34,749 nucleotides of DNA from Spirochaetia bacterium (GTDB lineage: Bacteria > Spirochaetota > Spirochaetia > DAHUYW01): contig JASHNV010000132.1 of NCBI GenBank assembly GCA_030041455.1, forward strand, positions 1 through 34,749, read 5' to 3'. Position 1 is the first letter of the stretch; every line of letters starts with the position of its first letter. Shown here piece after piece: positions 8,208 through 34,438 of this stretch. The translations under genes and the position numbers were made by a program. The notes beneath the pieces were generated by a model. It saw only the letters and a program-made list of their open reading frames with translations. It was not told the DNA's origin and searched no databases.

Positions 8208-8209
8208 GC

Positions 8210-18201: not shown

Positions 18202-18816
18202 ATGAAGATACAGGAGCTCACCGAGAAGATCTATCAAGACGGCATTGAGAAGGCGAGGCAGGAGGAGCGAGTCCTGCTCGAAGGCGCGCGCAAGGAGGCG
18301 GCCGAGCTCGTCGAATCCGCGAAAAAGGAGGCGGACTCGATCGTCTCGGGCGCCCGCAGCGAAGCGTCGAGGGTGAAGGAAAAGCTCGACGCCGAGATCA
18401 AGATCGCCGCCGGCCAGGCGCTGAGCCTCCTCAAGCAGCAGATCGCCGATCTTCTCGTCGAGTCGGTGCTCGCGCCGAGCGTCCGGGAGGCGGTCGGGGA
18501 CCGCGCGTTCATCGAGTCCCTCATCCAGTCGGTGGTGGCGAAGTGGGGCGCCTCCCAGGCGAGGGTCGACCTCCTGCTCGTGCTCCCGGAGAGCCAGAAA
18601 GCGCAGCTTGAGGAGTTCTTCGCCTCCCGCGCGTCCGGCCTCCTCGCGAAGGGGCTCACCGTGAGGTTCGAGGCCCGCATGCAGGGAGGCTTCGCGATCG
18701 GCCCGTCGGACGGCTCGTTCAAGCTCTCGTTCACCGAGAAGGACTTCGTCCAATTTTTCAAGTCGTTCCTCAGGCAGAAGACCAAAGAGCTCCTTTTCCC
18801 GGGAACAACGGCGTGA
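18202..18816 (+). CDS. atpE: V-type ATPase subunit E
   Basis: 204 residues. The first 75 or so form a charged helix (KARQEERVLLEGARKEAAEL, AKKEADSIVSGARSEASRV) that makes the peripheral stalk coiled coil; the C-terminal globular part (about 100-200) binds the top of the catalytic head. The ATG at 18202 is preceded by GGAGGA. It is the first gene of the operon and ends in a GTGA overlap with the DUF2764 gene, as in spirochaete V-ATPase operons. Confidence 0.88.
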   Translation: MKIQELTEKIYQDGIEKARQEERVLLEGARKEAAELVESAKKEADSIVSGARSEASRVKEKLDAEIKIAAGQALSLLKQQIADLLVESVLAPSVREAVGDRAFIESLIQSVVAKWGASQARVDLLLVLPESQKAQLEEFFASRASGLLAKGLTVRFEARMQGGFAIGPSDGSFKLSFTEKDFVQFFKSFLRQKTKELLFPGTTA

Positions 18817-19673
18817 AGCGCAACTATTACTTCCTTGCCTCAAGCCTCGCGGAGCTCGCGCGAGGCAAGGCAAGGCCCGCCGACAAGGTGAGGGACATGG
18901 TGGAGTTCTTTTCGAGCCAGCTGCACGCCGACGACCTCGAGTCGCTGAAGACGCTGTTCCTGTTCAACGACATCAAGAACCTCGTGGCCTACCACCGCGA
19001 GGGCGACCCCTTCGTGTATCCTTCCTATTACAGCGCCGAAGAGCTCACCGCCGGCCGGGCCGACCCCGAGCGGCTCCTGCCCTTCATCCGCGACTACCTC
19101 TCCGGAACCCCCGCCGGCACGCCGAAGCATCCCGACTTTCTCGAGATCAACGACCTCGTGACGCTTTTCTACGAGCACCTCGGAGACATCCGGGACGGTT
19201 TCGTGCGGGAGTACTTCCTCCACGAGCTCAACCTCCGGAACGTCGCCGTCGCGCTCGAGCTCAGGGGCAACAACGTTCCCTTCACCGGAAAGCTCATCCC
19301 CCTAGGCGAGGCGTACGAGCAGATCGTGGCCGACGGCAGCGAGGATTTCGGACTTTCGGAAACGTTTCCGTTCATGAGGCGGCTCCTCCCGCCCTACCGC
19401 GAGGCGAATCTCACCCGCCGAGAGGAGACGATCGAGGACATCCGCTGGGACTGGCTCGACGAGCGGCTCGGCCCGGACTTCTTCTCGACGGACTTCGTGT
19501 TGAGCTTCGCGATCAAGCTCCTTTCCGTCGAGCGGTGGGAGGCCCTGAGTCCCGAGAAGGGCGAGGAGCTTTTCAGCGAGCTCCTTGATACCGTCAGGCG
19601 CAGCGTGCGATTTGCAATCGAATTCTCAAGCGGGGAGGAGAGTCCCCAGCCAGCGGAGAGTGACCTACGATGA
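18813..19673 (+). CDS. DUF2764 protein, V-ATPase operon member
   Basis: 286 residues from a GTG overlapping the atpE stop. The N-terminus (RNYYFLASSLAELARGK) and position between subunits E and A are typical of DUF2764, found in spirochaete and chlamydial V-ATPase operons. These operons lack a recognisable subunit C gene, and a C-like (central-stalk socket) role is a common suspicion; the mostly helical, acidic sequence is compatible but not proof. No transmembrane segment or catalytic motif is visible. The stop overlaps atpA by ATGA. Confidence 0.8.
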   Translation: MKRNYYFLASSLAELARGKARPADKVRDMVEFFSSQLHADDLESLKTLFLFNDIKNLVAYHREGDPFVYPSYYSAEELTAGRADPERLLPFIRDYLSGTPAGTPKHPDFLEINDLVTLFYEHLGDIRDGFVREYFLHELNLRNVAVALELRGNNVPFTGKLIPLGEAYEQIVADGSEDFGLSETFPFMRRLLPPYREANLTRREETIEDIRWDWLDERLGPDFFSTDFVLSFAIKLLSVERWEALSPEKGEELFSELLDTVRRSVRFAIEFSSGEESPQPAESDLR

Positions 19674-21451
19674 GTAACGGCAAAGTGTTGGGAATCGACA
19701 GCAATCTCCTGACGATCAAGGTGGACGGACCGGTGGCGCAGAACGAGATCTGCCACGTCACCCACGATCGCAGTCGCCTGCTCGGCGAGGTCATCAAGAT
19801 CGTCGGCGACCGGGCCTACGTGCAGATCTTCGAGAGCACCCGGGGCTTGAAGACCGGCCTCGACGTCGAGTTCAGCGGCAGGATGCTCGAGGTCGAGCTC
19901 GGCCCCGGCATTCTCTCGCGGATCTACGACGGGCTGCAGAACGATCTCGAGGCGAAGACCGGCCTCTTCCTCAAGCGCGGCGAGGACACCCCGGCGCTCG
20001 ACGACGCGAAGCGCTTCGAGTTCAAGCCTCTCGCGAAGAAGGGGGATCTCGTCGTCGCGGGAGACTGGCTCGGGGAGGTCCTCGAGAACTGGATCGAGCA
20101 CAAGATCATGGTGCCGTTCGCCTTCGAGGGAAGCTACACGGTGGAGTCGATCGTCGGGCCGGGAAGCCGCGGGATCCGCGACACGATCGCCACCCTGAAA
20201 GGGTCCGACGGGGAGATCGTCCCGGTGACCATGGTGCAGCGGTGGCCGACCAAGCGTCCGATCGTCTGCTATCGGGAGAAGCCCCGCCCCTTCCGCATCA
20301 TGGAGACCGGCGTGCGCATCATCGACACGTTCAATCCCCTCGCCGAAGGCGGGACCGGCTTCATCCCCGGGCCGTTCGGCGCGGGGAAAACCGTTCTTCA
20401 GCACACCCTCTCGAAGAACGCCGAGGCGGACCTCATCATCGTCGCGGCGTGCGGCGAGCGGGCGAACGAGGTGGTCGAGCTCTTCACCGAGTTCCCCGAG
20501 CTCATCGATCCGCGCACCGGACGCAAGCTCATGGAGCGGACCACGATCATCTGCAACACCTCGAACATGCCGGTGGCCGCCCGCGAGGCGTCGGTGTACA
20601 CCGCCGTCACGATCGGGGAGTACTACCGGCAGATGGGCCTGCGGGTCCTCATGCTCGCCGACTCCACCTCGCGCTGGGCGCAGGCGCTGCGCGAGATGTC
20701 GAACCGCCTCGAGGAGCTTCCGGGTCCCGACGCCTACCCCATGGACCTTCCGGCGGTGATCTCCGCGTTCTACTCGAGGGCGGGCGTCGTCTACCTGAAC
20801 AACGGCCGGACCGGCTCCGTGACGTTCATCGGAACGGTATCGCCCGCGGGAGGCAACTTGAAGGAGCCGGTCACCGAGTCGACGAAGAAGGCGGCGCGCT
20901 GCTTCTACGCGCTGTCGCAGTCGCGCGCCGACGCGAAGCGCTATCCGGCGGTGGATCCCCTCGAGAGCTACTCGAAGTACCTCGAGTATCCCGAGATCCG
21001 CGACTACATGAGCAGGCAGCTCGGCGCCGACTGGGTGGGCATGGTGCTCGACGCGAAGAACTGGAACCAGCGCGGCAAGGAAGCCTACGACCAGATCAAC
21101 ATCCTCGGAGACGACGGGGTGCCGATCGAGTACCACACGACCTACTGGAAATCCGAGACGATCGACTCGGTCCTCATGCAGCAGGACGCTTTCGACCCGA
21201 TCGACTCGACCTGTCCCTTCGATCGGCAGCAGTACATGCTCCACCTCGTCATGAAGGTCTGCGGAGGCGAGTACAAGTTCGAGAATCTCGAGCAGGTGAG
21301 CCTCTACTTCAAGCGCATCATCAACGCGCTGAAACAGATGAACTACAGCAAGTACAAGTCGGCGGAGTTCGCGCGCTACGAGCAGGAGCTCGACGGGATC
21401 ATCGGGGAACGCCGGGTCTCGGCGCCTGCCGAGACCGTCCAGGCGCAATGA
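19670..21451 (+). CDS. atpA: V-type ATPase catalytic subunit A
   Basis: 593 residues, normal for the catalytic subunit, including the bulge domain (about 110-190) absent from F-type beta. Walker A is GPFGAGKT (234-241), the catalytic glutamate lies in ACGERANEVVE (E263) and Walker B in LRVLMLADSTSRWAQALREM. Three copies alternate with subunit B to make the head that hydrolyses or makes ATP. The ATG at 19670 overlaps the DUF2764 stop. No departures from the family were noticed. Confidence 0.96.
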   Translation: MSNGKVLGIDSNLLTIKVDGPVAQNEICHVTHDRSRLLGEVIKIVGDRAYVQIFESTRGLKTGLDVEFSGRMLEVELGPGILSRIYDGLQNDLEAKTGLFLKRGEDTPALDDAKRFEFKPLAKKGDLVVAGDWLGEVLENWIEHKIMVPFAFEGSYTVESIVGPGSRGIRDTIATLKGSDGEIVPVTMVQRWPTKRPIVCYREKPRPFRIMETGVRIIDTFNPLAEGGTGFIPGPFGAGKTVLQHTLSKNAEADLIIVAACGERANEVVELFTEFPELIDPRTGRKLMERTTIICNTSNMPVAAREASVYTAVTIGEYYRQMGLRVLMLADSTSRWAQALREMSNRLEELPGPDAYPMDLPAVISAFYSRAGVVYLNNGRTGSVTFIGTVSPAGGNLKEPVTESTKKAARCFYALSQSRADAKRYPAVDPLESYSKYLEYPEIRDYMSRQLGADWVGMVLDAKNWNQRGKEAYDQINILGDDGVPIEYHTTYWKSETIDSVLMQQDAFDPIDSTCPFDRQQYMLHLVMKVCGGEYKFENLEQVSLYFKRIINALKQMNYSKYKSAEFARYEQELDGIIGERRVSAPAETVQAQ

Positions 21452-21465
21452 AGCGGGGAGCGGGC

Positions 21466-22788
21466 ATGGAGACACAGGCATTCCAGAAGATCTACACGAA
21501 AATCTCGAAGATCACGAAGGCGACGTGCACCCTGCACGCCGCCGACGTCGCGAACGAGGAGCTCGCCTTCGTCGCCGGGCGGCACGCGCAGGTGCTCAAG
21601 ATCCTCGGCGACGAGGTCACCCTGCAGATCTTCGAGGGCACCGAGGGGCTCGGCAACGACGCCGAGGTCGTCTTCACCGGCAAGGCTCCGGGGATCAGGC
21701 TGTCCGACCAGATGGCGGGCCGCTTCTTCAACGCCTACGGCGACCCGATCGACGGCGGCCCCGAAATCGAGGGCGAGGAGCAGGAGATCGGCGGGCCGTC
21801 GGTGAACCCCGTGCGCCGGATTCAGCCGTCTCGGCTCATCGCGACCGGCGTCGCCGGAATCGACCTCAACAACACCCTCGTCACCGGCCAGAAGATCCCC
21901 TTCTTCGCCGATCCCGACCAGCCCTACAACCAGATCATGGCCGACGTGGCGCTCCGCGCCGAGGCCGACAAGATCATCCTCGGCGGCATGGGCCTGTCGA
22001 ACGACGACTATCTCTACTACCGGGAGCTCTTCGACAACGCGGGAGCGCTCGACAAGATCATCAGCTTCGTGAACACCACCGACAACTCGCCGATCGAGCG
22101 GCTGCTGATCCCCGACATGGCGCTCTCGGCGGCGGAGTACTTCGCGGTCCGGCGCAACCAGAGCGTCCTCGTTCTCCTCACCGACATGACGCTCTACGCC
22201 GACGCGCTCGCGATCGTCGGAAACAAAATGGACCACATCCCGTCGAAGGATTCCATGCCCGGCTCGCTCTACTCCGACCTCGCGAAGATCTACGAGAAGG
22301 CCGTCCAGTTTCCCGACGGCGGCTCGATCACGATCATCGCGGTGACGACGCTCTCCGGGGGCGATATCACGCACGCCATCCCCGACAACACCGGCTACAT
22401 CACCGAGGGGCAGCTGTTCCTCCGCAAGGACAGCGACATCAACCGCGTCATCATCGACCCGTTCCGCTCCCTCTCGCGCCTGAAGCAGCTCATCATCGGG
22501 AAGAAGACCCGCGAGGACCACCCGCAGGTGATGAACGCGGCGATCCGCCTGTACGCCGACGCGGTGAACGCCAAGGCGAAGCGCGACAACGGTTTCGAGC
22601 TCACCGACTACGACAAGCGGGCGATCCGCTTCTCCTACGACTACTCGGAGCGGCTGCTCGCGATCGACGTCAACGTCCGCATCGACGAGATGCTCGACAC
22701 CGCCTGGGAGCTCTTCGCGAAGTATTTCCACAAGTCGGAGCTGACCATCAAGCAGTCGATTCTCGACGCCCACTGGAAGGGAGAATGA
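21466..22788 (+). CDS. atpB: V-type ATPase subunit B
   Basis: 440 residues from ATG 21466, which has GGGGAG 5 bases upstream; an ATG at 21448 overlapping the atpA stop would add six residues and remains possible. As expected for the non-catalytic subunit there is no Walker A; the equivalent region reads GQKIPFFADPDQPYNQI. Family segments include VLLTDMTLYADALAIV, PSKDSMPGSLYSDLAKIYE and the arginine-containing FRSLSRLKQL. It alternates with subunit A and contributes to the nucleotide sites. Confidence 0.94.
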   Translation: METQAFQKIYTKISKITKATCTLHAADVANEELAFVAGRHAQVLKILGDEVTLQIFEGTEGLGNDAEVVFTGKAPGIRLSDQMAGRFFNAYGDPIDGGPEIEGEEQEIGGPSVNPVRRIQPSRLIATGVAGIDLNNTLVTGQKIPFFADPDQPYNQIMADVALRAEADKIILGGMGLSNDDYLYYRELFDNAGALDKIISFVNTTDNSPIERLLIPDMALSAAEYFAVRRNQSVLVLLTDMTLYADALAIVGNKMDHIPSKDSMPGSLYSDLAKIYEKAVQFPDGGSITIIAVTTLSGGDITHAIPDNTGYITEGQLFLRKDSDINRVIIDPFRSLSRLKQLIIGKKTREDHPQVMNAAIRLYADAVNAKAKRDNGFELTDYDKRAIRFSYDYSERLLAIDVNVRIDEMLDTAWELFAKYFHKSELTIKQSILDAHWKGE

Positions 22789-22822
22789 ACGCGCGCGGCC
22801 GATCGCGCGTCGGGGAGATCGC

Positions 22823-23425
22823 ATGGAGCTGAAGTTCCAGTTCAACAAGGTCTCGATGCAGGCGCTCCAGAAGCAGCTCAACGTCCGCGTCGCGGCGCTC
22901 CCGATCCTCAAGAGCAAGGAGTCGGTCCTCCGCATGACCGAGAAAAAGCAGAAGGAGATCTACGCCGAGCTCGACGAGCGCCACCGGGAGCGGCTCCTGC
23001 AGCTGAACGCGGACATCAAGCTCTGGACCGAGTTCCCGAAGGAGCTCTACTCGATGAAGAGCGTCACGCTGCAGACCAAGAAGATCGCGGGCATCACCGT
23101 TCCGGACATCAAGCACATCGACTGGTCCATCCACGACTACTCCCACTTCGCCAATCCGAAATGGCTCACCTCCGGCATCGCGATTCTCCGCGACCTCACC
23201 CTCATGGTCGCCGAGATGGAGGTGGTCGCGAAGGGCATCCAAATCATCGAGCGGGCGCGAAGGAAGACGACCCAGAAGGTCAATCTCTACGAGAAGGTGC
23301 AGATTCCCGCCTATACCGAGGCGATCCGGAAGATCAAGCGCCACCTGGAAGACGAGGCGAACCTCGACAAGGCGGTCCAGAAGATCACCAAGCAGCGCGC
23401 CGAGGCGGAGGAGCAGCCGGCATGA
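22823..23425 (+). CDS. atpD: V-type ATPase subunit D
   Basis: 200 residues, almost entirely helical and charged, forming the antiparallel coiled coil of the central rotor shaft. The N-terminus (FQFNKVSMQALQKQLNVRVA) and C-terminus (TQKVNLYEKVQIPAYTEAIR) are typical of the family. It starts 34 bases after atpB; the gap contains an ACGCGCG/CGCGCGT inverted repeat (22789-22810) and GGGGAG before the ATG. The stop overlaps the subunit I start (ATGA). Confidence 0.92.
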   Translation: MELKFQFNKVSMQALQKQLNVRVAALPILKSKESVLRMTEKKQKEIYAELDERHRERLLQLNADIKLWTEFPKELYSMKSVTLQTKKIAGITVPDIKHIDWSIHDYSHFANPKWLTSGIAILRDLTLMVAEMEVVAKGIQIIERARRKTTQKVNLYEKVQIPAYTEAIRKIKRHLEDEANLDKAVQKITKQRAEAEEQPA

Positions 23426-25278
23426 TCGAGAAGATGGCGAAGCTCTCGCTGCTGTTCCACCACTCGAACAAGGACGCGTTCCTCGCCGAGCTCCAGCGCC
23501 TCGGCGTGTTCCACATCGAGAACTTCGGCGTCAACCAGACGGCGGAGATCACCGCGCTCGGCGCGCGCATCGGCAGGCTCGCGCAGACCGAGCGGTTCCT
23601 GCGAAGCGAGGCGCGCTCCCGCGCCGACGCGGAGGAGCTCCCCGAGACGGAGGACGAGCTCGTCGCGCTGGTCGGCGAGCTTCGCGAGTCGCTTGAGCGC
23701 TCCGAGGGCGAGCGGGAGCGGATCGCCGCCGAGCTCAAGCGCGCTCTCCGCTGGGGGAGCTTCGACCCCGCGAAGGTCGCCGAGCTCGAGTCCGCCGGAC
23801 TGGGCATGAGGCTCTACTCCTCCGCCCGGTCCTCGGTCGATCGCGTCAAGGCGAAGCTCGCGGCGGACGACTCCTACGCCTTCGAGGAGGTCCTCGAGGA
23901 GCTCGGCACCGTCTACTTCGTCGTCGTCTTCAGGCTCGAGGCCGGGATCCCGGACATCGACGCGGCCGAGCAGCGGCTGCCGTCGGCGAGCGTCGAGAGC
24001 CTTCGAGCCTCGGAGGCGGCGCGCGCCGCCGAGGCCGCGAAGCTTCGCGAGGCGGTCGGGCGCCTCGCGAAGCGCGCGGACTTCCTCGCCGAGCGGGTCC
24101 GCGTCCACCAGAACCGCCTCGCGGTCCTGCTCGCGGAGGCGAGCCTGACCGGGGAGGCCGACGGGCACGTCTTCGTCGTGAGCGGCTGGGTCCCGAAGCG
24201 GCAGCTTCCCGGAGTCGAGAAGTTCCTCGACGGGCAGGAGGTGCTCTACGTGGCGCGCTCGCCCGAGCGGGAGGAGAAGGTGCCCATCCTCCTGAAGAAC
24301 CGCCCCTACTCGAGGCTCTTCGAGCCGGTCATGCGCATCTTCAGCCTCCCCAACTACAAAGAGCTCGACACCACCCCCTTCCTCGCGCCCTTCTACACGA
24401 TCTTCTTCGGACTGTGCGTCGCCGACATGGCCTACGGGCTCATCCTCCTCGCGGCGCTCTTCGGGGCCCTGGTGGTCATCAAGCGGAAGAGCGCGCGGCC
24501 GCTCCTCTATCTCGGGCTCATGCTCGCGGCCTCGGTCACGCTCATGGGGCTCTTCCTGAACTCCTTCGGCGGAATCTCCGTGACGAGCCTCTTCGGCGAG
24601 CACTCGGCGCTCGCCGACATGGTGCTCTTCCGCGACATGAACGGCGCCATGTTCCTCGCGGTCGCGCTCGGCGTCATCCAGGTGACCTTCGGCCACGTCC
24701 TGAGGATCTTCAACGAGGTGAAGGAGCACGGCCCCTCAGGCGCCCTCGGGCCCACGGGGATCGCGCTCCTGTTCTTAGGCGGCATCGTGTTCCTGCTCGA
24801 GCTCCTCGGGCCGGGCTTCAAGATCGGGCTCTTTCCGGTCGGCTCCCTCGGCTCGGCGATTCCCCATCCCGGCGACGTCGCGCTCGCGCTCGCCGGCCTC
24901 GGGCTCGTGCTCGCGCTCTTCTTCGGCCACCCCCGGTCGAAAGTCTACGTGCGGCCGGGCCTCGGCCTGTGGGAGCTCTACGAGCTCGCGACCGGCACCA
25001 TCGGCGACGTTCTCTCCTACTTGAGGCTTTTCGCCCTCGGGCTCGCCGGCGGCCTCCTCGGCGAGGCCATGGTGAAGGTGGCGCTCCTCGTGAAGGGGAC
25101 CGCCTGGTGGGGCTATATCCTGATGATCATCGTTCTTCTGCTCGGAAGCGGCATCAATCTCGCGATCGGGCTTCTCTCGGCCTTCGTCCACTCGCTGCGC
25201 TTGACCTTCGTCGAGTTCTACAAAGCGATCGGATTCAAGGGCGGAGGCGCCGAGTACAGCCCGTTCAAGCTGAAGTAG
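23422..25278 (+). CDS. atpI: V-type ATPase subunit I (a subunit)
   Basis: 618 residues. The N-terminal cytoplasmic half (about 1-310) is rich in coiled coil (ELRESLERSEGERERIAAEL) and joins the peripheral stalks; the C-terminal half has about seven transmembrane helices carrying the ion half-channels. The essential arginine opposite the proteolipid ring is expected in SYLRLFALGLAGGL, and the family end TFVEFYKAIGFKGGGAEYSP is present. Start ATG overlaps the atpD stop. Length and layout are normal for bacterial V-type I subunits. Confidence 0.93.
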   Translation: MIEKMAKLSLLFHHSNKDAFLAELQRLGVFHIENFGVNQTAEITALGARIGRLAQTERFLRSEARSRADAEELPETEDELVALVGELRESLERSEGERERIAAELKRALRWGSFDPAKVAELESAGLGMRLYSSARSSVDRVKAKLAADDSYAFEEVLEELGTVYFVVVFRLEAGIPDIDAAEQRLPSASVESLRASEAARAAEAAKLREAVGRLAKRADFLAERVRVHQNRLAVLLAEASLTGEADGHVFVVSGWVPKRQLPGVEKFLDGQEVLYVARSPEREEKVPILLKNRPYSRLFEPVMRIFSLPNYKELDTTPFLAPFYTIFFGLCVADMAYGLILLAALFGALVVIKRKSARPLLYLGLMLAASVTLMGLFLNSFGGISVTSLFGEHSALADMVLFRDMNGAMFLAVALGVIQVTFGHVLRIFNEVKEHGPSGALGPTGIALLFLGGIVFLLELLGPGFKIGLFPVGSLGSAIPHPGDVALALAGLGLVLALFFGHPRSKVYVRPGLGLWELYELATGTIGDVLSYLRLFALGLAGGLLGEAMVKVALLVKGTAWWGYILMIIVLLLGSGINLAIGLLSAFVHSLRLTFVEFYKAIGFKGGGAEYSPFKLK

Positions 25279-25281
25279 GAC

Positions 25282-25312
25282 CGCTCCGCGTCCCGGCGCG
25301 GGACCGGGAGCG
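25282..25312 (+). other. Intercistronic hairpin before atpK
   Basis: CGCTCC (25282-25287) pairs with GGAGCG (25307-25312) and GTCCC (25290-25294) with GGGAC (25300-25304), separated by a 2x2 internal loop. It lies between atpI and atpK, followed by a pyrimidine tract and a strong double SD. It could stabilise or define a separate atpK transcript. Confidence 0.5.
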
Positions 25313-25350
25313 CTTCTTCTTCGCAGGAAATAAGGAGTCTGGAGGATTAC

Positions 25351-25806
25351 ATGGTTACTTTGTCAGTTATTCCGGCAACTCTCGGGCTAGGCGTCATGTT
25401 CGGGCTCTCGGGAATCGGCTCCGTGTACGGACTCGTCATCGCAGGCAACGCCGTCGTGGGCGCGATCCGCAAGAAGCCGGAGACCTTCGGCGTGACGCTC
25501 GTGCTCTCGGCGCTTCCTTCGACCCAGGGTCTCTACGGCTTCGTCGGGTACATCATCTTCTCGCCGTTCATGTCGTCCGGCATGGACCTCTACCGGGCGA
25601 TGCTCGTGCTTGTGGCCGGAATCGCGCTCGGGGCGGTCAACCTCGTCTCGGCGATCAAGATGGGCCAGATCTGCGCCTCCGGCATCACGTCGATCGGCCA
25701 GGGCTACCCGGTCTTCGGGAACACCCTCGTTCTCGCCGCCTTTCCCGAGTTCTACGCGATCCTCGCGCTCGTGTCGGTCATTCTCATGTCTCAGCTGATC
25801 CACTAG
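25351..25806 (+). CDS. atpK: V-type ATPase proteolipid subunit K (c ring)
   Basis: 151 residues forming two helical hairpins (four transmembrane helices), the duplicated c-subunit plan of bacterial V-ATPases. The first hairpin has L55, T58, Q59 in ALPSTQGLYGF; the second carries the ion-binding E133 in FPEFYAILAL. Against Enterococcus hirae NtpK as I recall it (L61, T64, Q65, Q110, E139), four of five Na+ ligands are conserved, while the Q110 position is M104. The ATG has AAGGAG and GGAGGA upstream, the strongest ribosome binding region in the operon, fitting a subunit needed in many copies. A gap of 72 bases with a hairpin precedes it. Confidence 0.93.
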   Translation: MVTLSVIPATLGLGVMFGLSGIGSVYGLVIAGNAVVGAIRKKPETFGVTLVLSALPSTQGLYGFVGYIIFSPFMSSGMDLYRAMLVLVAGIALGAVNLVSAIKMGQICASGITSIGQGYPVFGNTLVLAAFPEFYAILALVSVILMSQLIH

Positions 25807-25847
25807 CGCGGCCGAGGATTCGACCGCCCCGCCAAGGAGGCAAGGAG

Positions 25848-26315
25848 ATGGTGCTGTCGGAAGTCTATCGGGTGGAGAACATCGTGCCGAATCTCGCGAG
25901 CAAGACCAAGGACGAGCTCTTCGACGAGCTTGTCGATTTTCTCGCAGCTCGCCGCTACAAACTCGATCGCGACAAGGTCCTCGTCGCGCTGCGCACCCGC
26001 GAGCAGATGCTGAGCACCGCGGTCGCGCCGCACATCGCCCTGCCCCACGCGTCCCTCCGGGGCCAAAAGGAGACCATCGGGGTCTTCGGCATCTCGAAGG
26101 GCGGGATCGAGTACGGATCCCATGACGGGAATCTCGTTCACGTCGTCATGATGCTCGTCGACGACCGCCTCGAGACGAAGCTCCACCTCGGATTTCTCCG
26201 ACAGGCCGCCGAGCTCGTCGGCAGCCCCGATTTCTACGCGAAGATCATGGCCTGCTCGAGCGCAGGGGAGATCTTCAAGGTCATCGTCGAAGTCGAGAGG
26301 ATGCAGAGGGTCTGA
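25848..26315 (+). CDS. PTS EIIA-type (PtsN/fructose-mannitol family) protein
   Basis: 155 residues, a single EIIA domain of the fructose/mannitol/nitrogen class. The phosphorylatable histidine is H67 in PHIALPHASL, with H62 nearby as in the family. No transporter (EIIB/EIIC) gene is adjacent, so a regulatory EIIA-Ntr-like role is more likely than sugar uptake. The ATG at 25848 follows AAGGAGGCAAGGAG. It begins 41 bases after atpK on the same strand and may be cotranscribed with the V-ATPase. It converges with the propeller lipoprotein gene, 18 bases apart. Confidence 0.88.
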   Translation: MVLSEVYRVENIVPNLASKTKDELFDELVDFLAARRYKLDRDKVLVALRTREQMLSTAVAPHIALPHASLRGQKETIGVFGISKGGIEYGSHDGNLVHVVMMLVDDRLETKLHLGFLRQAAELVGSPDFYAKIMACSSAGEIFKVIVEVERMQRV

Positions 26316-26333
26316 CGCGCGCGGAAGAGCCTT

Positions 26334-27581
26334 CTAGTAAAGCTCCTCCAACACGTAGAAATAGCTTTGGTCGGTTCCGAAGACGATCCACTTCCCCGAG
26401 ATCACCGGCGCGCTCAAAAGCGAGCCGTCCAGATCGAGCTGCCAAAGCAGCCGCCCGTTTCGCGCCGAGAGGCAGACGAGCTTCGGCTTCGGCCCGTCGG
26501 CCGACGTCGGGTCGCCCCGAAGTCCCACGTAGACCCGGTCGCCGGCCACCGTCGGCGCCGAGGAGGTCGGGAGGTCGAAGTGGTGCTCCCAGGCCGGCGT
26601 GCCGTTCCTTCCGCGCAGCGCGCGCACGACCGTGTCGCCGCTCGCGTAGATGACGAGGTTCCTCCACACGGCGGGCGCCATGTAATCGAGGAGCTGCAGG
26701 TTCTCGGTGTAGAGATTGTCGGGGTCGAAGCCGTTCGTCTCGCCCCACTGCGACGTGTCCTCGTAGCGCCACTTCAGCGCTCCGGTCACGCGGTCGTAGG
26801 CGTAGTAGACGAGCTGCCAGGCGCCGCCTCCGGTGTCGGTGCTCGTCGCGAAGTAGACGTCGTTCCCCTTCAGCGCCGGAAAGGAATACCAGTACGCGTT
26901 CAGCTGTGCCGTGTCGAGGATCCACAGGTAGGCGCGGCTCTTGAGGTCGTAGGCTCCGAAGCTGTTCGGCTGGCTCAAGGGCCCCGGCGCAAAGTAGATC
27001 ACGTCCTTGTAGACCTGAAACGTGTCGTAGAACCAGACGGGATTCGGGATCTGGTAACGCAGGACCCCGTCCGGCGAGACCACGAAGGTATAGCCGCCGT
27101 CGCTCGTGAAGAGAATCGAGTCGCCGTAGCGCACGACCGACGAGCGGACGGGATTGCCGGCCGGGAAGGCCCATGCCTGCTTGCCCGTGCGCTGGTCGAC
27201 CGCGTACATGTTGCCGTCCTCGGAGCCGAAGTAGACGTTCCGGGCGTCGGCCGACGGCACCGAGTTGATCGGGCCGCCGGTCTTGTACACCCAGTTCATG
27301 TACCCGCTTTCGAGGTCGAGCGAGTAGAAGTTCCCGTCCGCGGAGCCGAAGAAAATGGTATTCCCGATGATGACCGGCGGGTTGAACGCGACGAGCGGCT
27401 TGCCGTTGTCCTGCAGCCTGAGCTTCCACTTGATACCGAGGGGCGGGTAGACGGCGCTCGACGTCGCGCCGCGCCCCTGGTCTCCGCGGAAGGTGACCCA
27501 GTCGCTAGAGCGGAAGCAGCCGATCGCCGAGAGCGAGAGGAGACCGGCGAGGGCGCCGAGGGCGAGGCGCCTCGTCACCAT
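26334..27581 (-). CDS. PQQ-type beta-propeller lipoprotein
   Basis: 415 residues. A signal peptide ends in a lipobox LSAIGC (C22), so the protein is a lipoprotein. The rest is a run of PQQ-like/BamB-like propeller blades recognisable by repeats such as NTIFFGSADGNFYSLDLESG, NVYFGSEDGNMYAVDQRTGK and DRVYVGLRG. No quinoprotein active-site residues are evident, so it is more likely a binding or scaffold propeller than a dehydrogenase. Its ATG overlaps the transglutaminase stop by 7 bases, making it the last gene of the second MoxR cassette. Confidence 0.85.
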   Translation of the reverse strand: MVTRRLALGALAGLLSLSAIGCFRSSDWVTFRGDQGRGATSSAVYPPLGIKWKLRLQDNGKPLVAFNPPVIIGNTIFFGSADGNFYSLDLESGYMNWVYKTGGPINSVPSADARNVYFGSEDGNMYAVDQRTGKQAWAFPAGNPVRSSVVRYGDSILFTSDGGYTFVVSPDGVLRYQIPNPVWFYDTFQVYKDVIYFAPGPLSQPNSFGAYDLKSRAYLWILDTAQLNAYWYSFPALKGNDVYFATSTDTGGGAWQLVYYAYDRVTGALKWRYEDTSQWGETNGFDPDNLYTENLQLLDYMAPAVWRNLVIYASGDTVVRALRGRNGTPAWEHHFDLPTSSAPTVAGDRVYVGLRGDPTSADGPKPKLVCLSARNGRLLWQLDLDGSLLSAPVISGKWIVFGTDQSYFYVLEELY

Positions 27582-29860
27582 CGGTAGTAGAGCCCCTTCA
27601 GGCTGAAGCCGCGCCGGAGCGCGCTCCCGACGCCGCTCCCGCGGCAGCTCCGGATCGCGAGCCGGTACTCCCGCCTGAGCTCGGCCCAGAGGAGCTTCCG
27701 CTCGCCGGGACCGAAGAGCTCGCGGTAGCGGATCTCCGTGTAGAGCGCCGCGAACCTCGCGAGCTCCGGATGGCCGGCGGCGTACTCTCCGGGCGTGTAA
27801 GCCGGGCTCTTGAGGTCGAACCCCTCGTTCACGAGCCTGAGGAGGAGCAGCTTATACAGGGCGTCGGGCGCCCGGTTGCTCCGGCCCCTCGCGGCGTTGA
27901 GCAGGAAGAGCTCTCGTCCGTAGCGATAGAGGTACATCACGACCATGGCAAGAAGCGCGACGATCCCGACCCCCTCAAGGAGCGCCCGCCACGGGAAGTT
28001 CGCGAGCGGCGAGCCCTCCGTCTGGCCGTTGAGAAGCGGGATGACGACGTCCCACGAGTCGGGGTCGCCCCCCGCGGCGGGCGGAATCGCGTAGGCGGTG
28101 GACTCGAAGTCCACCCACCCGTAGCCCGGCAGGTAGTACTGAACCCAGGAGTGGCGGTGGGCCGTGGTGACGAGGTAGAGCTCGTCCATCGGGAAGGCCT
28201 TGAGGAGGGGGATTTTTTCACGCAGCACCTCGAGGCCTCGCCGGTGCGCCGGGGTCTGGAGGCTCTTCGCCGCGAGATAGCCGGTCACCACGCGCGAGGG
28301 AATGCCCATGAGCCTTCCGAGGACCGCCGCGGTGTTCGAGAACTCCACGCAGTCGCCGTTTTTCGTGGCCGTGAGGAAATCGACGAGGTGGGCGACCGAG
28401 ACGTCGTTCGAGAAACCGACCTGGTATTGATAGGAGGAGAAGCTCCGCAGGATCGCCTGGATCCTCGCGAAATAGCCGAGCGCGCGCGGGACCGCGCGGG
28501 CGAGGTAGCCCTCGAAGACCCGCCGGTCGCCCGGGGACAGCGGGATGGCGAGGTACGGCGCGAGCTCGGCGCGCTCCTCCGGGCTCAAGCCGACGATCGA
28601 CGACCACTCGCTCGCCCCGCTCAGGCTCATCATCGACGTCGAGTCGTAGGAGTAGCTGAACGGGTAGTAGGCGCGCTTCAGGACCGTCGGCTCGACGGTG
28701 TAGGGGCGGTAGGCGAGGACGCGGTCGGGGATCGTCGAGAGGAAGAACAGGGGCTCAGGCGTCCGATCCGCGTCGGAGTCCGTATCGCCGTCGGTCCAGG
28801 TGTCGAGGAGCCGGCTGTGGACGAGATCGTTGAGGGGGTCTCCGGGCGTCCGCTCGAAACCCGCCTGGGGATCGAAGAGGCCGAAATAGCCGTCGGCCGC
28901 GTAGACCGGATCGATCGGACTCGCGACGACCATCACCGCGTACTGGCGGCTTTGGCCGCTTCCCGATGACGACTGGCCGTTCTGCCACAGATTGGACGGC
29001 ACCCCCTCGAGGAGAGGCTGCTTGCCCAGCTCGCCTCCGGTCTGCCCGTCGCCGTAGAGGTACTGGTCGCCCGCGCGCATGCCCGCCGCGTTCCGCCCCT
29101 CGGTCTGCTGGGCCGAGCGCAGGTTGCCCCCCGGGATGCCGTTCCCGCTCGCGTCGATCGGGAAGGGTCTCGGCGTGGCGCGGCGGTCGAGGTCGTTGAG
29201 CACGATGGAATGCGACACGAAGTTCGCGGGGACGAGGATCGCGACCGCGAGCGCGACGGGAGCGACGATGCAGGCGAAAAGCAGCAGCTCGCGTCTGCCC
29301 TTCGCCTGCGAGCGGAACGCGGCGAAGTAGAGCACGAGCGAGTGCAGGAGGAAGGCGCACACCGCGACGACGAGGAGAAGCTGCGTGATTCCCGCGCTCT
29401 TCTCCGCGATCGTCTCCGAGGCTCGGGTGAAGGAGAGCATCTTGAAGTACAGCACGGCGAGGAGGAACGGCTCGGGAAGCGCGAGCCAGCGTCCCCAAGG
29501 GCCGCCGTGGAACACCGCCGCCGTCACGAGGAAGCTCGCCGCGCCCACGCCGAGGTAGAGGAGGGAGTAGGGAGAGAACTCCGAGACGAACGCGATCGTC
29601 GCGGCGATCGGGAGCGCTCCCACGACGAGCCAGGCGCCCGGCGAGAGGCGCGGCGGCGCCGCGTAGAAGGCGATGAGCATCTCGGCGGGCAGGAGCGCGA
29701 ACCAGAGCCACCAGCCGAGCGCGTCGTACGGCACGACGATCGCGGGGTGCACCAGCGGGATCGAGAACACGAGCAGGTAGAGCGCGAGCCTCGTGTAGAA
29801 GAGCGCGTGCTTCAAGCGCCGTTCGTCCTTCGTCGCGCTTCCGACGATCGTTGTTTCCAT
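27575..29860 (-). CDS. TgpA-like membrane transglutaminase with DUF4129-like tail
   Basis: 761 residues from the ATG at 29860, which has GGAGAG 9 bases upstream; a TTG two codons earlier is an alternative. The N-terminus has about six transmembrane helices (within residues 20-215). A periplasmic region follows with the transglutaminase-like core: catalytic Cys in KNGDCVEFSNTAAVLGR (about 504), His in AHRHSWVQYYLPGYGWVDFE (about 570) and Asp in that last segment. A transmembrane helix near 630-650 and a cytoplasmic DUF4129-like tail (YTPGEYAAGHPELARFAALY) complete it. TgpA-type proteins regularly follow MoxR-DUF58 pairs; they are thought to act as periplasmic proteases or transglutaminases. 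Confidence 0.88.
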   Translation of the reverse strand: METTIVGSATKDERRLKHALFYTRLALYLLVFSIPLVHPAIVVPYDALGWWLWFALLPAEMLIAFYAAPPRLSPGAWLVVGALPIAATIAFVSEFSPYSLLYLGVGAASFLVTAAVFHGGPWGRWLALPEPFLLAVLYFKMLSFTRASETIAEKSAGITQLLLVVAVCAFLLHSLVLYFAAFRSQAKGRRELLLFACIVAPVALAVAILVPANFVSHSIVLNDLDRRATPRPFPIDASGNGIPGGNLRSAQQTEGRNAAGMRAGDQYLYGDGQTGGELGKQPLLEGVPSNLWQNGQSSSGSGQSRQYAVMVVASPIDPVYAADGYFGLFDPQAGFERTPGDPLNDLVHSRLLDTWTDGDTDSDADRTPEPLFFLSTIPDRVLAYRPYTVEPTVLKRAYYPFSYSYDSTSMMSLSGASEWSSIVGLSPEERAELAPYLAIPLSPGDRRVFEGYLARAVPRALGYFARIQAILRSFSSYQYQVGFSNDVSVAHLVDFLTATKNGDCVEFSNTAAVLGRLMGIPSRVVTGYLAAKSLQTPAHRRGLEVLREKIPLLKAFPMDELYLVTTAHRHSWVQYYLPGYGWVDFESTAYAIPPAAGGDPDSWDVVIPLLNGQTEGSPLANFPWRALLEGVGIVALLAMVVMYLYRYGRELFLLNAARGRSNRAPDALYKLLLLRLVNEGFDLKSPAYTPGEYAAGHPELARFAALYTEIRYRELFGPGERKLLWAELRREYRLAIRSCRGSGVGSALRRGFSLKGLYYRW

Positions 29861-29866
29861 GATCAA

Positions 29867-31159
29867 TTACTCTCCAAAATCGATGAGGCCGACGCGCAGG
29901 CTGTCCTGCGCGGCGACGCGCGCTCGAGTCGCCTCCAGGCCGGGCACGGAGGAGCGGGCCTCCCTCCGGAAGGCCCACGGGCCCGGCAGCGGCAGCTGGT
30001 CTCGGAACCGAAAGAGCGCCACCTTCCGCCGCCGGGCGCCCGCCGGCCAGTCGCCGGGAAGCGTCCGAAAGACGGTGATTTTCGCCTGCGGAAAGGCCTG
30101 GAGCATCGCGGGGAGCTCGCGGTCGAAGGGCGTGGTGAAAACGTAGATCTCGTCGGTCGGCGCCTGAGCGATCGGCGCCTCGCTCCGGTAGTGAATCTCG
30201 CTCAAGACCTGCGCGAAGGCGTCGATGTCCTCGACGCTCGACAAGCGGCTCGTGCCGCTTCCGGTCGCGACGAGGAACTGAAAGTCCGGATTGGACGCCT
30301 TCGCCTGCCTCAGAAAGGCGAGCAGCCACCCTTTCAGATAGCTCAGGTGCGCCACCGAATCGAGCGTCTCAGGCGCCTCCGCGCGATAGTTGCGGAGCTC
30401 GACCGTGATGATCTTCGTCCGCTCCTGGGCGACCGGCGCGATGCGGGTGATGAGCTGCGCGAGGCGGCTCGACGTCTTCCAGTTGATGTCCCGAAAGCGG
30501 TCGCCCGGCGCGTACTCGCGCATGTAGTACTTGTCCTCGTCGGAGTTGAGCTGACTCTGCTTTTCCTCGGAGCGCTCGGTCGCGTCGATCCGGACGCTCA
30601 CGCTCTCCGGATGGGGCCCCGGGCAGACCGCGAGACGCCGCGCGAACGGCTCCCCGGCCCGCGAGCGCGTGAGCCCGAAAATGTCGCCGATCGAGAGAAC
30701 GCCGTGGCACGCGAAGACGCCGCAGAGCGGAAAGGCGAGCCTCACGGGAAGCGCACCGCCGCTCGCGCGGCTTGCGACGGTCGTCTGGACAAGGTACAGC
30801 GAGGCGCCGTTTCCCACCTGCAAGCGGCCCGCGACGGTGAAGTGGAGGCGAAAGCCGAGGAGGGGCTTGATCTCGATCCCCGTGACGCGCTGCTCGGCGG
30901 GCTCGCGCCCCGCGACGAGCGGATTCGCGCTGTCCCACTGGATCGGGTACTTCTCGAGCTGCTGCGCCTGCATCCGCGAAAGCGCGGCGAGACTGCCGAG
31001 GATGAGAAGCGCAAAGGCGGCAAGCACGAGCTCGTAGGGGTCGCGCGAGAGGAGACTTCCCGCGAGGAGCGCGAGCGCGAGCGCGAGGAGCGCCGCGCCT
31101 GAGACCGAGAAGGGAAAGTAGCGGCCGATCGAACGGCCCGGTGTCCGGACGTTGCTCAT
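29867..31159 (-). CDS. DUF58-domain membrane protein, second MoxR cassette
   Basis: 430 residues. Two adjacent transmembrane helices (about 18-36 and 42-58) anchor the protein, unlike the soluble DUF58 protein at 8210. The DUF58 signature is REYAPGDRFRDINWKTSSRL (about 225-245). The first 200 residues form a beta-rich domain. The stop TAA is directly next to the alternative TTG start of the transglutaminase gene. ATG at 31159 has CGAGG upstream and lies 20 bases after the moxR-like gene. Anchored DUF58 proteins are the usual type in transglutaminase cassettes. Confidence 0.87.
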   Translation of the reverse strand: MSNVRTPGRSIGRYFPFSVSGAALLALALALLAGSLLSRDPYELVLAAFALLILGSLAALSRMQAQQLEKYPIQWDSANPLVAGREPAEQRVTGIEIKPLLGFRLHFTVAGRLQVGNGASLYLVQTTVASRASGGALPVRLAFPLCGVFACHGVLSIGDIFGLTRSRAGEPFARRLAVCPGPHPESVSVRIDATERSEEKQSQLNSDEDKYYMREYAPGDRFRDINWKTSSRLAQLITRIAPVAQERTKIITVELRNYRAEAPETLDSVAHLSYLKGWLLAFLRQAKASNPDFQFLVATGSGTSRLSSVEDIDAFAQVLSEIHYRSEAPIAQAPTDEIYVFTTPFDRELPAMLQAFPQAKITVFRTLPGDWPAGARRRKVALFRFRDQLPLPGPWAFRREARSSVPGLEATRARVAAQDSLRVGLIDFGE

Positions 31160-31179
31160 GGGGAGGCCTCGCGGGCGCT

Positions 31180-32235
31180 TCAGTTCTTGCGCTGGCGGGC
31201 GATGTCGACCGGGACGGTTTCGAGGATCGACTTGACCGTCTGAGCGCTCGAAAGAGACGGATCGCGCATGAGGAGGCGATGGGCGATCGCCGTCGGAAAG
31301 AGCTCCTTCACGAGGTCGATCGTGACGTAGGTCTTCCCCCTCACGAGCGACAGCGCCCGCGCGAGTCTCGAGACCTTGACGCCGGCGCGAGGGCTCGCTC
31401 CGACCGACACGTCGGGGTGGTTGCGCGTCTCGCGCACGCACGCGACGATGTAGTCGACGATTTCGTCGTGAATAGTGACGTGATCCACGAGGCCGCGCCA
31501 CTCCGCGAGCTCCCGGGAACCGATCACCGGCTTGAAGTTCGACCACGCGTCGTCGCGGCCGTGCTGCCTGATGATCGACGCCTCGTCGGCGCCGCTCGGG
31601 TAGCCCATGGAGAGCTCGATCATGAAGCGGTCGAGCTGGGGAGCGGGCAGGGGAAAGAGGTGCACGCCCTTCAGGTTCATCGTCGCGATGATGAAGAAGG
31701 GATCGGGGAGCCTGAAGGTTCTTCCCTCGATCGTCACGGCCTGCTCCTCCATCGCCTGCAGGAAGCTGCCCTGGGTCTTCGGCGTGAGCAGGTTGATCTC
31801 GTCGCAGAGAACGAAGTGGGCGAAGATCGGCCCCTTGTTGAAGATCATCTCCTGCGTCGCGCCGGTAAATCGGTTGTATCCGAGGATGTCCTGCGGGAGG
31901 AGGTCGACCGTGCACTGGATGCGGCTGAACGCCTCCAGCTTGACGCTGTCGCTGTAGAGGTCTCCGTCGTTCCATGAGATCGAGCCCGCGAGCGCGCGGG
32001 CGAGGGAGGTCTTCCCGACGCCGTGCGAGTCGGCGAGGATGACGTGGCCGCCCGCGATCTTGCTCGCGATGATGTACTCGAGCTTCCTCGGGTCGATGGA
32101 TATGACCGACTGGATGTTCTCGATGAGCCGGGCGACAGCCGCCGCGACCTTGGAGACCGCCGGGGCGAGGCCTTCCGCGCCGCTCTGCGCAAAGCCTACC
32201 CGCGCCTCGTCGCGCGACTGGAGCTTTTCTGCCAT
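31180..32235 (-). CDS. MoxR-family AAA+ ATPase, second cassette
   Basis: 351 residues. Walker A region reads ADSHGVGKTS, in which the first glycine of GxxxxGKT is D; Walker B is FVLCDEINLL, and the sensor region is FFIIATMNLKGVHLFPLPAP. It differs clearly from the first MoxR (position 7227), which has EGVPGLAKT and ATQNPIEHEG, so the two are different subfamilies rather than a recent duplication. No Shine-Dalgarno sequence precedes ATG 32235; a promoter 10 bases upstream suggests a leaderless mRNA. First gene of the minus-strand cassette with DUF58, transglutaminase and propeller lipoprotein. Confidence 0.9.
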   Translation of the reverse strand: MAEKLQSRDEARVGFAQSGAEGLAPAVSKVAAAVARLIENIQSVISIDPRKLEYIIASKIAGGHVILADSHGVGKTSLARALAGSISWNDGDLYSDSVKLEAFSRIQCTVDLLPQDILGYNRFTGATQEMIFNKGPIFAHFVLCDEINLLTPKTQGSFLQAMEEQAVTIEGRTFRLPDPFFIIATMNLKGVHLFPLPAPQLDRFMIELSMGYPSGADEASIIRQHGRDDAWSNFKPVIGSRELAEWRGLVDHVTIHDEIVDYIVACVRETRNHPDVSVGASPRAGVKVSRLARALSLVRGKTYVTIDLVKELFPTAIAHRLLMRDPSLSSAQTVKSILETVPVDIARQRKN

Positions 32236-32244
32236 AGCTTATAG

Positions 32245-32273
32245 AAGATAGAGAATGCGATTTGGAAAATCAA
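32245..32273 (-). promoter_or_regulatory. Predicted promoter of the second MoxR cassette, leaderless
   Basis: Reading leftward: -35 TTGATT (32273-32268), exactly 17 bases, -10 TATCTT (32250-32245), with TATAAG another possible box nearer the gene. The predicted start is about 3 bases before the ATG at 32235. Confidence 0.5.
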
Positions 32274-32815
32274 GCGCTCGGGGACCGGCTTTCAAGGGGG
32301 CGAGCCGCGGAAGGCTCGGAGCCCCGCCCGGGCGGTCTTCGGGAGAAGACCCCGCGCCGAAGCTCAGGATGCTCAGTTTGTCCGCGACCGGCTCATGAGC
32401 GCCTTCTCGTCGAAACACGACCGGCAAGCGAGCGCGACCGGCACGGAGGCCCGGGTCGACGAGAGAGCCTCGGCCGACCTCGCGCCTCGATCACGATGAC
32501 CTTGGTTCGCTCCTGGGTCCCTTCAGGCCCGCAACCGTCCGCTCGACCGTCTCGATTCTCAGGCGGCCTCGCCTTCGCGCATCCCGAGCTCATCCGGTTG
32601 CGGCTCCGGCCCATGACGATGCGCTCGTTCTTTCGCAAACCGAGAGGGCATCGCGCGGAGACGGGAAATCGCGAAGGGCCCGCCCCTCGCGCGAGAGGGG
32701 GCGGGGCTTCGGCAAGCCGTTCCCCCTCGGAGCGTCTCCGTGTCTGCGCGATTCCCGCCCGGGGCCGGGAGCTCGACGACGCGAAGGCTCAGGCGGCCGG
32801 CGCCGGGGAGACGCG
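32274..32815. other. Gene-poor stretch with a GC-rich hairpin
   Basis: No frame gives a recognisable protein. A strong imperfect hairpin (GCCCGCCCCTC at 32678-32688 with GAGGGGGCGGGGC at 32695-32707) lies about 110 bases beyond the tetR stop and could end its transcript, though no T-tract follows. Confidence 0.5.
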
Positions 32816-33427
32816 CTACGCGGAGCTCTTTCCGCCGGCGGGAGGGAAGAACCTCGGGGCGAGGAGTCCGGCGAGCCGGTCGCGGACCGGCCGTTCGCCG
32901 AGATCCGCGCCGATCAGCGCCGACGCCGCCTCCGGGGCAATGCCGACGAAGACGGCGAAGGCGAGCAGGAGCGCCGTTCCCAGGCCGGAATCCGACTCCC
33001 GCCCCGTTCGCCGGCAGAGCGCGCCGAACAGCGCCCGAAGAGAGGAGGCCGACTCGTCGCGCACCGTCGATCGCTCGACGAGGATGGCGTGGATGACGTT
33101 GGGGTAGCGGACGGCTCCCTCGAGCAGGTAGCGCGTGGCCGCTTCGAGGCCTTCGGCGGCGTCGCTCGTTCCCTCCCCGATCTTCTCCAGGTCCTCGGCG
33201 ACGTGGTTCCACGCGAGGCGGAGGGCCGCTTCGATGAGGCGCTTTTTTGAGCGGTAGTAGTAGTTCACCGCGGCGGCGTTCAGCCCAGCCTTCGCGGCGA
33301 TCCCCCGCACGGTCGCCCCGTCGAGCCCCGACTCCGCGATGCAGTCGAGCGCGGCCGCGAGAATGCGCTGTTCCGGCGGACGCCGCGGCGAGCCGCCGTC
33401 GCGGGCGAAGAGCATGTCGATATCCAT
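32816..33427 (-). CDS. TetR/AcrR-family transcriptional regulator
   Basis: 203 residues. The N-terminal helix-turn-helix is typical: ILAAALDCIAESGLDGATVR, IAAKAGLNAAAVNYYYRSKK (about 20-65). The C-terminal ligand-binding part resembles the AcrR/CerR-type domain (RYLLEGAVRYPNVIHAILVE). It is divergent from the SDR-like gene, with 138 bases between, and probably represses that gene through the inverted repeat at 33464-33500. ATG at 33427 or 33415 can serve as start. Confidence 0.9.
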   Translation of the reverse strand: MDIDMLFARDGGSPRRPPEQRILAAALDCIAESGLDGATVRGIAAKAGLNAAAVNYYYRSKKRLIEAALRLAWNHVAEDLEKIGEGTSDAAEGLEAATRYLLEGAVRYPNVIHAILVERSTVRDESASSLRALFGALCRRTGRESDSGLGTALLLAFAVFVGIAPEAASALIGADLGERPVRDRLAGLLAPRFFPPAGGKSSA

Positions 33428-33455
33428 CGCTCAGCGTACCGCCGCCCTTTGCCTC

Positions 33456-33500
33456 TTGACAACTGTATCAATCGAATGTATAAAACAAATGAATGATACA
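33456..33500 (+). promoter_or_regulatory. Promoter of the SDR-like gene with TetR operator candidate
   Basis: A near-perfect promoter, TTGACA (33456-33461), 17 bases, TATAAA (33479-33484). The half-sites TGTATCA (33464-33470) and TGATACA (33494-33500) form a perfect 7-bp inverted repeat that brackets the -10 box and the predicted start, as expected for a repressor site. The region is AT-rich against its surroundings. Confidence 0.65.
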
Positions 33501-33565
33501 AGCGTCCGGACACGGGAGGTCGACGCGAAGGCCGCCAGAGCCGGCGCGCACGGAGAGGCGACGCC

Positions 33566-34438
33566 ATGAAGGTCAGGGAGCTCGCGGGGAGGACGGCCGC
33601 GGGAAGCGTGCTCGTCACGGGAGTCTCGTCGGGAATCGGGAGGGCGATCGCGGTCCGGCTCGCGGAGGCCGGCCGCCTTGTGTTCGGAACGGTGCGCCGG
33701 CGTGAGGACGCGGACGCGTTGGCGGCGCTCGGGCTTCCGGGCCTGCGGCCTTTACGGCTCGATCTGGCGCGCTTGGAGCGGCTCCCCGAGGTCGTGCGCA
33801 CGGTCGACGCGGAGCTCGCCCGGGCCGGGGAGCCCGGGCTTTCCGCGCTGGTGAACAACGCGGGGGGCAGCCTCGTCGGTCCGGTCGAGCTCATGGATCT
33901 CGAAGCGTTCGCAACCGAGCTGCGGGTACGCCTCCTCGCCGCGCTCGCTCTCCTGCAGGCCTTCCTTCCCTCCCTCAGGCGGGCGGCGGGGCGCGTCCTG
34001 TGGATCGCGACGCCGGGCCTCCTTCCGACCCCCTACGCGACCGGCATTCACGCCTGCGACTTCGCCGTCAACTGCATCGCGCGGACGCTGGCGATCGAGA
34101 TCGGAGGCGGGGGGCCGAAGGTCGTTCTCATCCGCTGCGGCGCGATCCGCACGCGCTCGGGTATGGCCACCGCGGGGGATCTCGCGGCGAGCCTCGCGGG
34201 ACGCCCTCCCGAACGGCGCGCTCTCTACGAGGAGAAGCTCGCGCGCTGGGCGCGCTCGATGGCGGAGCTCGACGCGAAGCGCAGCGCCCCCGAGCGCGTG
34301 GCCGAGACCGTGGAGCGGGCGCTCGCCGCGGCGCGGCCGAGGAGCCGCTACCGCGTGGGCTATCTCTCGGGAGTTGCCGGCCTCATCGAGACGCTCCCGC
34401 AACCGCTCGTCGACCGGCTGCTCGCCGCCCGCGGGTAG
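33566..34438 (+). CDS. SDR-family protein lacking the catalytic YxxxK lysine
   Basis: 290 residues of short-chain dehydrogenase fold. The cofactor motif TGVSSGIG (18-25) and the structural NNAG are intact, so NAD(P) binding is likely. At the active site the usual YxxSKfAv segment reads YATGIHACDFAVNCIARTLA: by the best alignment the tyrosine position is I161 and the lysine is D165; if Y157 is taken as the tyrosine, the lysine is I161. In neither case is the lysine present, and the catalytic serine region is WIATPG. The protein may be inactive as a dehydrogenase or use another chemistry. GAGGCGACG precedes the ATG. It is divergent from, and probably controlled by, the TetR gene. Confidence 0.82.
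   Translation: MKVRELAGRTAAGSVLVTGVSSGIGRAIAVRLAEAGRLVFGTVRRREDADALAALGLPGLRPLRLDLARLERLPEVVRTVDAELARAGEPGLSALVNNAGGSLVGPVELMDLEAFATELRVRLLAALALLQAFLPSLRRAAGRVLWIATPGLLPTPYATGIHACDFAVNCIARTLAIEIGGGGPKVVLIRCGAIRTRSGMATAGDLAASLAGRPPERRALYEEKLARWARSMAELDAKRSAPERVAETVERALAAARPRSRYRVGYLSGVAGLIETLPQPLVDRLLAARG

Follow-up and report, generated by a model that had tools for sequence, protein, structure and literature searches.

The window analysed here, a stretch of 34,749 nt from a Spirochaetia bacterium, is one whole contig of a 3.39 Mb genome. Near its right end lie four consecutive genes on the minus strand that encode a MoxR-family AAA+ ATPase, a DUF58-like protein, a transglutaminase and a propeller lipoprotein (Table 1). 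All four ORFs of the original prediction are present, and their spacing is as it had reported, with gaps of 20 bases (MoxR to DUF58-like) and 0–6 bases (DUF58-like to transglutaminase), followed by an overlap of 7 bases between the last two genes that is consistent with translational coupling. An alternative upstream TTG start, at 29866, is possible for the transglutaminase. The first three genes follow the order of TgpA trios (MoxR, DUF58, membrane transglutaminase, all on one strand).

Table 1. Positions of the cassette genes and of neighbouring features in the window.
Feature	Position	Strand	Remarks
MoxR-family AAA+ ATPase (gene 1)	31180–32235	−	351 aa
DUF58-like membrane-anchored protein (gene 2)	29867–31159	−	430 aa, ATG at 31159
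TgpA-like polytopic membrane transglutaminase (gene 3)	27575–29860	−	761 aa from ATG
PQQ-type propeller lipoprotein, eight-bladed (gene 4)	26334–27581	−	415 aa
Overlap of transglutaminase 3′ end and propeller start	27575–27581	−	7 bases, ATGGTGA, read from sequence
Bat-type set (first MoxR cassette of the window)	7227–12600		MoxR with bpMoxR match, DUF58 with DVSAS MIDAS-type motif, vWA protein, TPR proteins
V-type ATPase operon	18202–26315		ATP-synt_B-like, DUF2764, A, D, I and K subunits seen
TetR-family regulator and divergent short-chain dehydrogenase	32816–34438	− / +	Upstream of the cassette

A scan of positions 26100–33600 gave no match to a sigma-70-type promoter, and no terminator-like site on the minus strand between the cassette genes. 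The sole minus-strand terminator-like site of this region falls within the coding sequence of the propeller; sites of this kind were no more frequent than in shuffled sequence. The original prediction had named a promoter or terminator between the last two genes as evidence against it, and neither was found there; the four genes are presumed to be co-transcribed. Downstream, the cassette converges tail-to-tail with a PtsN-like EIIA gene that ends the V-type ATPase operon. The EIIA and K genes also flank the propeller gene in a congeneric genome (L067). The regulator and dehydrogenase genes on the upstream side show no sign of conservation with the cassette.

Domains and predicted structures of the four proteins

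The MoxR protein matches Pfam AAA_3 (128.7 bits) and AAA_lid_2, and its Walker A, Walker B (CDEIN), sensor 1 (TMN), LDRF and sensor 2 (SPR) motifs are invariant in 16 aligned relatives, giving the domains and the Walker, sensor and arginine motifs of an AAA+ ATPase. Its closest solved relative is 2r44. Hydropathy and positive-inside charges place it in the cytoplasm, together with the bulk of the DUF58-like protein.

The second protein had been described as an anchored DUF58 protein. The anchor is supported by two predicted N-terminal transmembrane helices, which are followed by a beta-sandwich and a vWA-like C-terminal part (AlphaFold model, pLDDT 88). The DUF58 label fits less well, as the sequence is degenerate, scoring 21.8 bits against the Pfam gathering cut-off of 23.4, and lacks a MIDAS. 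The motif REY.PGDR.RDINWK is conserved, and the position of the MIDAS aspartate is occupied by arginine in 68 of 70 sequences; a DxSxS motif in register was found in none of the 70. The absence of the DxSxS motif suggests that classical, metal-mediated peptide binding is probably not available to this protein. A fold search with the model returned no full-length relative that was convincing, and the vWA assignment is therefore argued from the Pfam match, the conserved motif and the succession of secondary-structure elements (strands and helices).

The transglutaminase matches Pfam Transglut_core (58.9 bits). From hydropathy and positive-inside charges it is predicted to consist of N-terminal transmembrane helices, a periplasmic part (residues ~211–625) that holds the core, one further transmembrane helix (residues ~626–644) and a cytoplasmic tail with a weak match to DUF4129 (E 0.0077), which is the architecture of TgpA-like proteins. 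In a profile alignment with the TgpA structure 6g49, Cys504 and His570 correspond to two members of the catalytic triad, and both are invariant in 78 sequences. The third member had been given as aspartate in a Cys-His-Asp triad. The residue aligned with the triad acid is Glu586 (Glu in 77 of 78 sequences, Asp in one), whereas Asp584, conserved in 77 of 78, lies two residues away from that position, and the triad should be read as Cys-His-Glu. Glutamate at this site may alter or weaken catalysis. Among four paralogous TgpA-like transglutaminases of these or related genomes that were checked (L218, L219, L220 and L222), three also have Glu as the catalytic acid and only L220 carries the canonical DPT.

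The product of the last gene matches Pfam PQQ_2 (107.6 bits), and its AlphaFold model (pLDDT 94.1, pTM 0.90) is an eight-bladed propeller, with blades counted from strand order, in which an N-terminal strand closes the ring. An insert between blades 5 and 6 (helix insert at residues 287–303) is specific to this family; it contains a helix (residues 287–294) and a near-invariant LD..AP motif and, judging from the model, is a candidate docking element. The protein has the features of a bacterial lipoprotein, its lipobox Cys22 being present in 72 of 73 aligned propellers, and hydropathy and charges place it in the periplasm. Within one genus the cysteine is lost in two genomes (G010 and G069) and kept in a third (G189), the loci concerned being L080, L224 and L225. 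A link between this loss and detachment of the propeller from the trio was considered and rejected, as G069 lacks the cysteine yet retains the linkage.

Conservation of the cassette in Spirochaetota

If the propeller is a regular member of the cassette, as originally predicted, then its homologues should accompany the trio in other genomes. Profiles of the propeller and of the transglutaminase were searched against 395 genomes of the class, and matched 68 and 72 of them, respectively. Every one of the 68 propeller genomes also has the transglutaminase, and each of the four genomes with only a transglutaminase match is interrupted there by a contig end. Propeller and transglutaminase are neighbours on the same strand in 63 of the 68, with 1–198 bases between the matched stretches. 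In four others they are found on different contigs, each at a contig end, which leaves 64 testable cases, and only in G010 is the propeller truly apart from the transglutaminase. Strong transglutaminase matches adjoin strong propeller matches in 60 relatives, and just one propeller match occurs in the genome to which the window belongs. Propeller homologues are, then, not found mostly away from the trio. In a draw of 393 genomes from the phylum, 30 have the propeller, including families outside the class.

The gene order of the cassette was examined at 80 named loci from Spirochaetota (Spirochaetales, Spirochaetia, Treponema sp. and Leptospirales; two records lack a phylum name). All four genes occur in order on one strand at 59 loci, and a further 19 are cut by contig ends but contain every gene that fits, leaving two exceptions (L168 and L188). 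The flanking genes are not shared in this way. A conserved fifth gene was sought and rejected, since neighbours are limited to particular clades and the best flanking family is present at no more than 13 of the 80 loci. The claim of a fixed fourth member is thus strongly supported: the four genes are maintained across Spirochaetota as a fixed unit, and this conservation rules out chance.

The first exception, L168, has the transglutaminase and propeller genes without MoxR and DUF58, and the same genome carries a cassette-type MoxR-DUF58 pair on another contig, followed by a NeuB gene. This split genome is represented by L217 (10204–13731) and L226. The set is broken once in this genome, exactly in the middle, with both halves kept. 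This suggests that the cassette is built of two modules, with MoxR-DUF58 as cytoplasmic driver and transglutaminase-propeller as envelope effector, and it ties the propeller to the enzyme. At the second exception, L188, the propeller stands alone in a genome of 0.9 Mb that, if correctly matched by its size, is apparently 76% complete, so the trio may or may not be truly missing there. The further trios of MoxR, DUF58 and transglutaminase that were examined in these genomes have no propeller; the genes that follow them are unrelated (a TPR protein, a glycosyl hydrolase), and these trios match the cassette transglutaminase profile only weakly.

Trees of the four proteins, reconstructed from 61 loci, are congruent. 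Those of the transglutaminase and the propeller have 41 of 58 splits in common, more than any other pair, and the correlation between the DUF58 and propeller trees is weak (0.21) when the transglutaminase is controlled for. Congruence of this kind shows co-inheritance and is not proof of contact.

Related systems and possible functions

The trio itself is known. In Pseudomonas aeruginosa, the genes upstream of tgpA (PA2875 and PA2874) presumably encode MoxR and DUF58 proteins. The last gene of the trio PA2875-PA2874-PA2873 likewise encodes a membrane protein whose transglutaminase core is periplasmic; tgpA is essential and shares a transcript with the two genes before it, and the periplasmic part of TgpA has transglutaminase activity in vitro (PMC3507681). 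No propeller member has been described there, and the downstream gene PA2872 is transcribed separately. The catalytic acid also differs (Asp in TgpA, Glu in the cassette), and the similarity between the two enzymes is at the profile level only. A second relative is the PFNA cluster of Bifidobacterium (pkb2-fn3-aaa-atp-duf58-tgm), which shares the MoxR-DUF58-transglutaminase core and also has a fixed extracytoplasmic partner (PMC8430577). In that Gram-positive cluster the partner is an FN3 protein with a kinase, encoded upstream and not homologous to the propeller. PFNA is a case of another lineage that has supplemented this trio with an extracytoplasmic protein of its own. A literature search, which covered few subscription papers, did not turn up any description of MoxR together with both a transglutaminase and a PQQ propeller. 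The four-gene unit is apparently an undescribed, lineage-specific version of the TgpA trio in Spirochaetota, and its propeller is a strong candidate for a dedicated outer partner of the membrane enzyme system. The trio is widespread and poorly understood, and its transglutaminase is essential in P. aeruginosa. The linked propeller offers a concrete handle on it, both as a soluble, well-folded bait for the substrate of the enzyme and for testing whether cytoplasmic MoxR controls a periplasmic enzyme. For Spirochaetota the cassette also provides a marker system, which occurs in sediment, marine and termite-gut lineages and which most genomes of the class lack.

The favoured reading, to which we give about an even chance, is that the ATPase acts through the DUF58-like protein on the membrane enzyme, with the propeller as periplasmic partner. 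The MoxR ring would hydrolyse ATP in the cytoplasm, and the membrane-anchored DUF58 adaptor would relay this to the conformation, assembly or turnover of the transglutaminase. The periplasmic Cys-His-Glu domain may then cross-link, deamidate or cut an envelope substrate, and the propeller, tethered in the periplasm, would dock on the transglutaminase and position, recruit or gate that substrate. The simplest chain of contacts would be MoxR, DUF58, transglutaminase tail, transglutaminase core, propeller. This arrangement fits the predicted topology, the shared phylogeny and the split genome. The detached propeller of G010, the loss of the lipobox cysteine in G010 and G069 and the lone propeller of L188 count against it, as do the possible weakening of catalysis by the triad glutamate and the fact that vertical descent of an operon would by itself give linkage. 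A stronger version remains tentative. It sees a phylum-specific trans-envelope machine, in which MoxR hydrolyses ATP in the cytoplasm and a vWA-like adaptor without metal, together with a polytopic membrane protein, transmits this to a periplasmic Cys-His-Glu enzyme held by the propeller. If true, spirochaetes would possess an ATP-driven system for covalent modification or proteolysis in the periplasm.

The propeller could instead be the client, with MoxR and DUF58 acting as its maturation chaperone and the transglutaminase processing or cross-linking it. MxaF, with eight blades, belongs to the fold class of the cassette propeller, and MxaS is a DUF58 protein. As in the cassette, in the mox/mxa operon of methylotrophs a periplasmic propeller protein of PQQ type accompanies a MoxR ATPase (mxaR) and MxaS (PMC9728263, PMC3615186). 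That propeller, MxaF, is a PQQ methanol dehydrogenase and the operon has no transglutaminase, whereas the cassette propeller lacks the hallmarks of a PQQ enzyme, scoring 38.9 bits against a cut-off of 480 and having an adjacent Cys-Cys pair in none of 73 sequences; identity as a PQQ dehydrogenase was rejected. In the split cassette, moreover, it is the transglutaminase that the propeller has remained beside, rather than the MoxR-DUF58 pair, and the weak partial correlation of the DUF58 and propeller trees argues in the same direction. This makes a client role unlikely.

Simple inertia of the operon, with a functionally separate propeller that is only co-inherited with the trio, would account for the congruent trees, which are expected from vertical descent alone; descent of an operon also yields linkage, and it confounds the tree correlations. 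Against this, the four-gene order survives divergence of the propeller to ~38–45% identity and extends over more than one class while the flanks are scrambled, and no propeller genome of the survey has lost the transglutaminase. Inertia is therefore a rather improbable explanation.

A role for the propeller as a spirochaete BamB-like outer-membrane assembly factor, with the trio regulating or editing outer-membrane protein assembly, is decidedly doubtful. BamB (YfgL) is likewise an eight-bladed PQQ_2 propeller lipoprotein, and Foldseek searches with the model returned BamB, Cake8 and tetrathionate hydrolase as best matches, with BamB of P. aeruginosa at the top. However, identity as BamB was rejected by the curated model (TIGR03300, 92.1 bits against a cut-off of 285), sequence identity to BamB structures is 13–17%, and the propeller has an extra helical insert and a different gene context, with no Bam genes beside it. 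Most genomes of the class also lack it, even though none can do without outer-membrane assembly.

A conflict or defence system akin to the MoxR-vWA-beta-propeller ternary systems described in eLife in 2020 (PMC7159879) is very improbable: the ingredients are the same at the level of folds, and loss of the vWA aspartates is reported there too, but PADLOC gave no match, Pfam gave no bpMoxR match for the cassette MoxR whereas the Bat-type MoxR of the window has one, and the propeller is a separate periplasmic lipoprotein, unfused to vWA and with no effector swapping. Carriage on a plasmid was likewise dropped, no plasmid match being found.

The Bat operon, found in the window and in other spirochaetes, brings MoxR and DUF58 together in the same organism, as the cassette does, but with true vWA/MIDAS-type and TPR proteins and with neither a transglutaminase nor a propeller. 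It comes after an ArgJ gene and is of the ordinary spirochaete Bat type.
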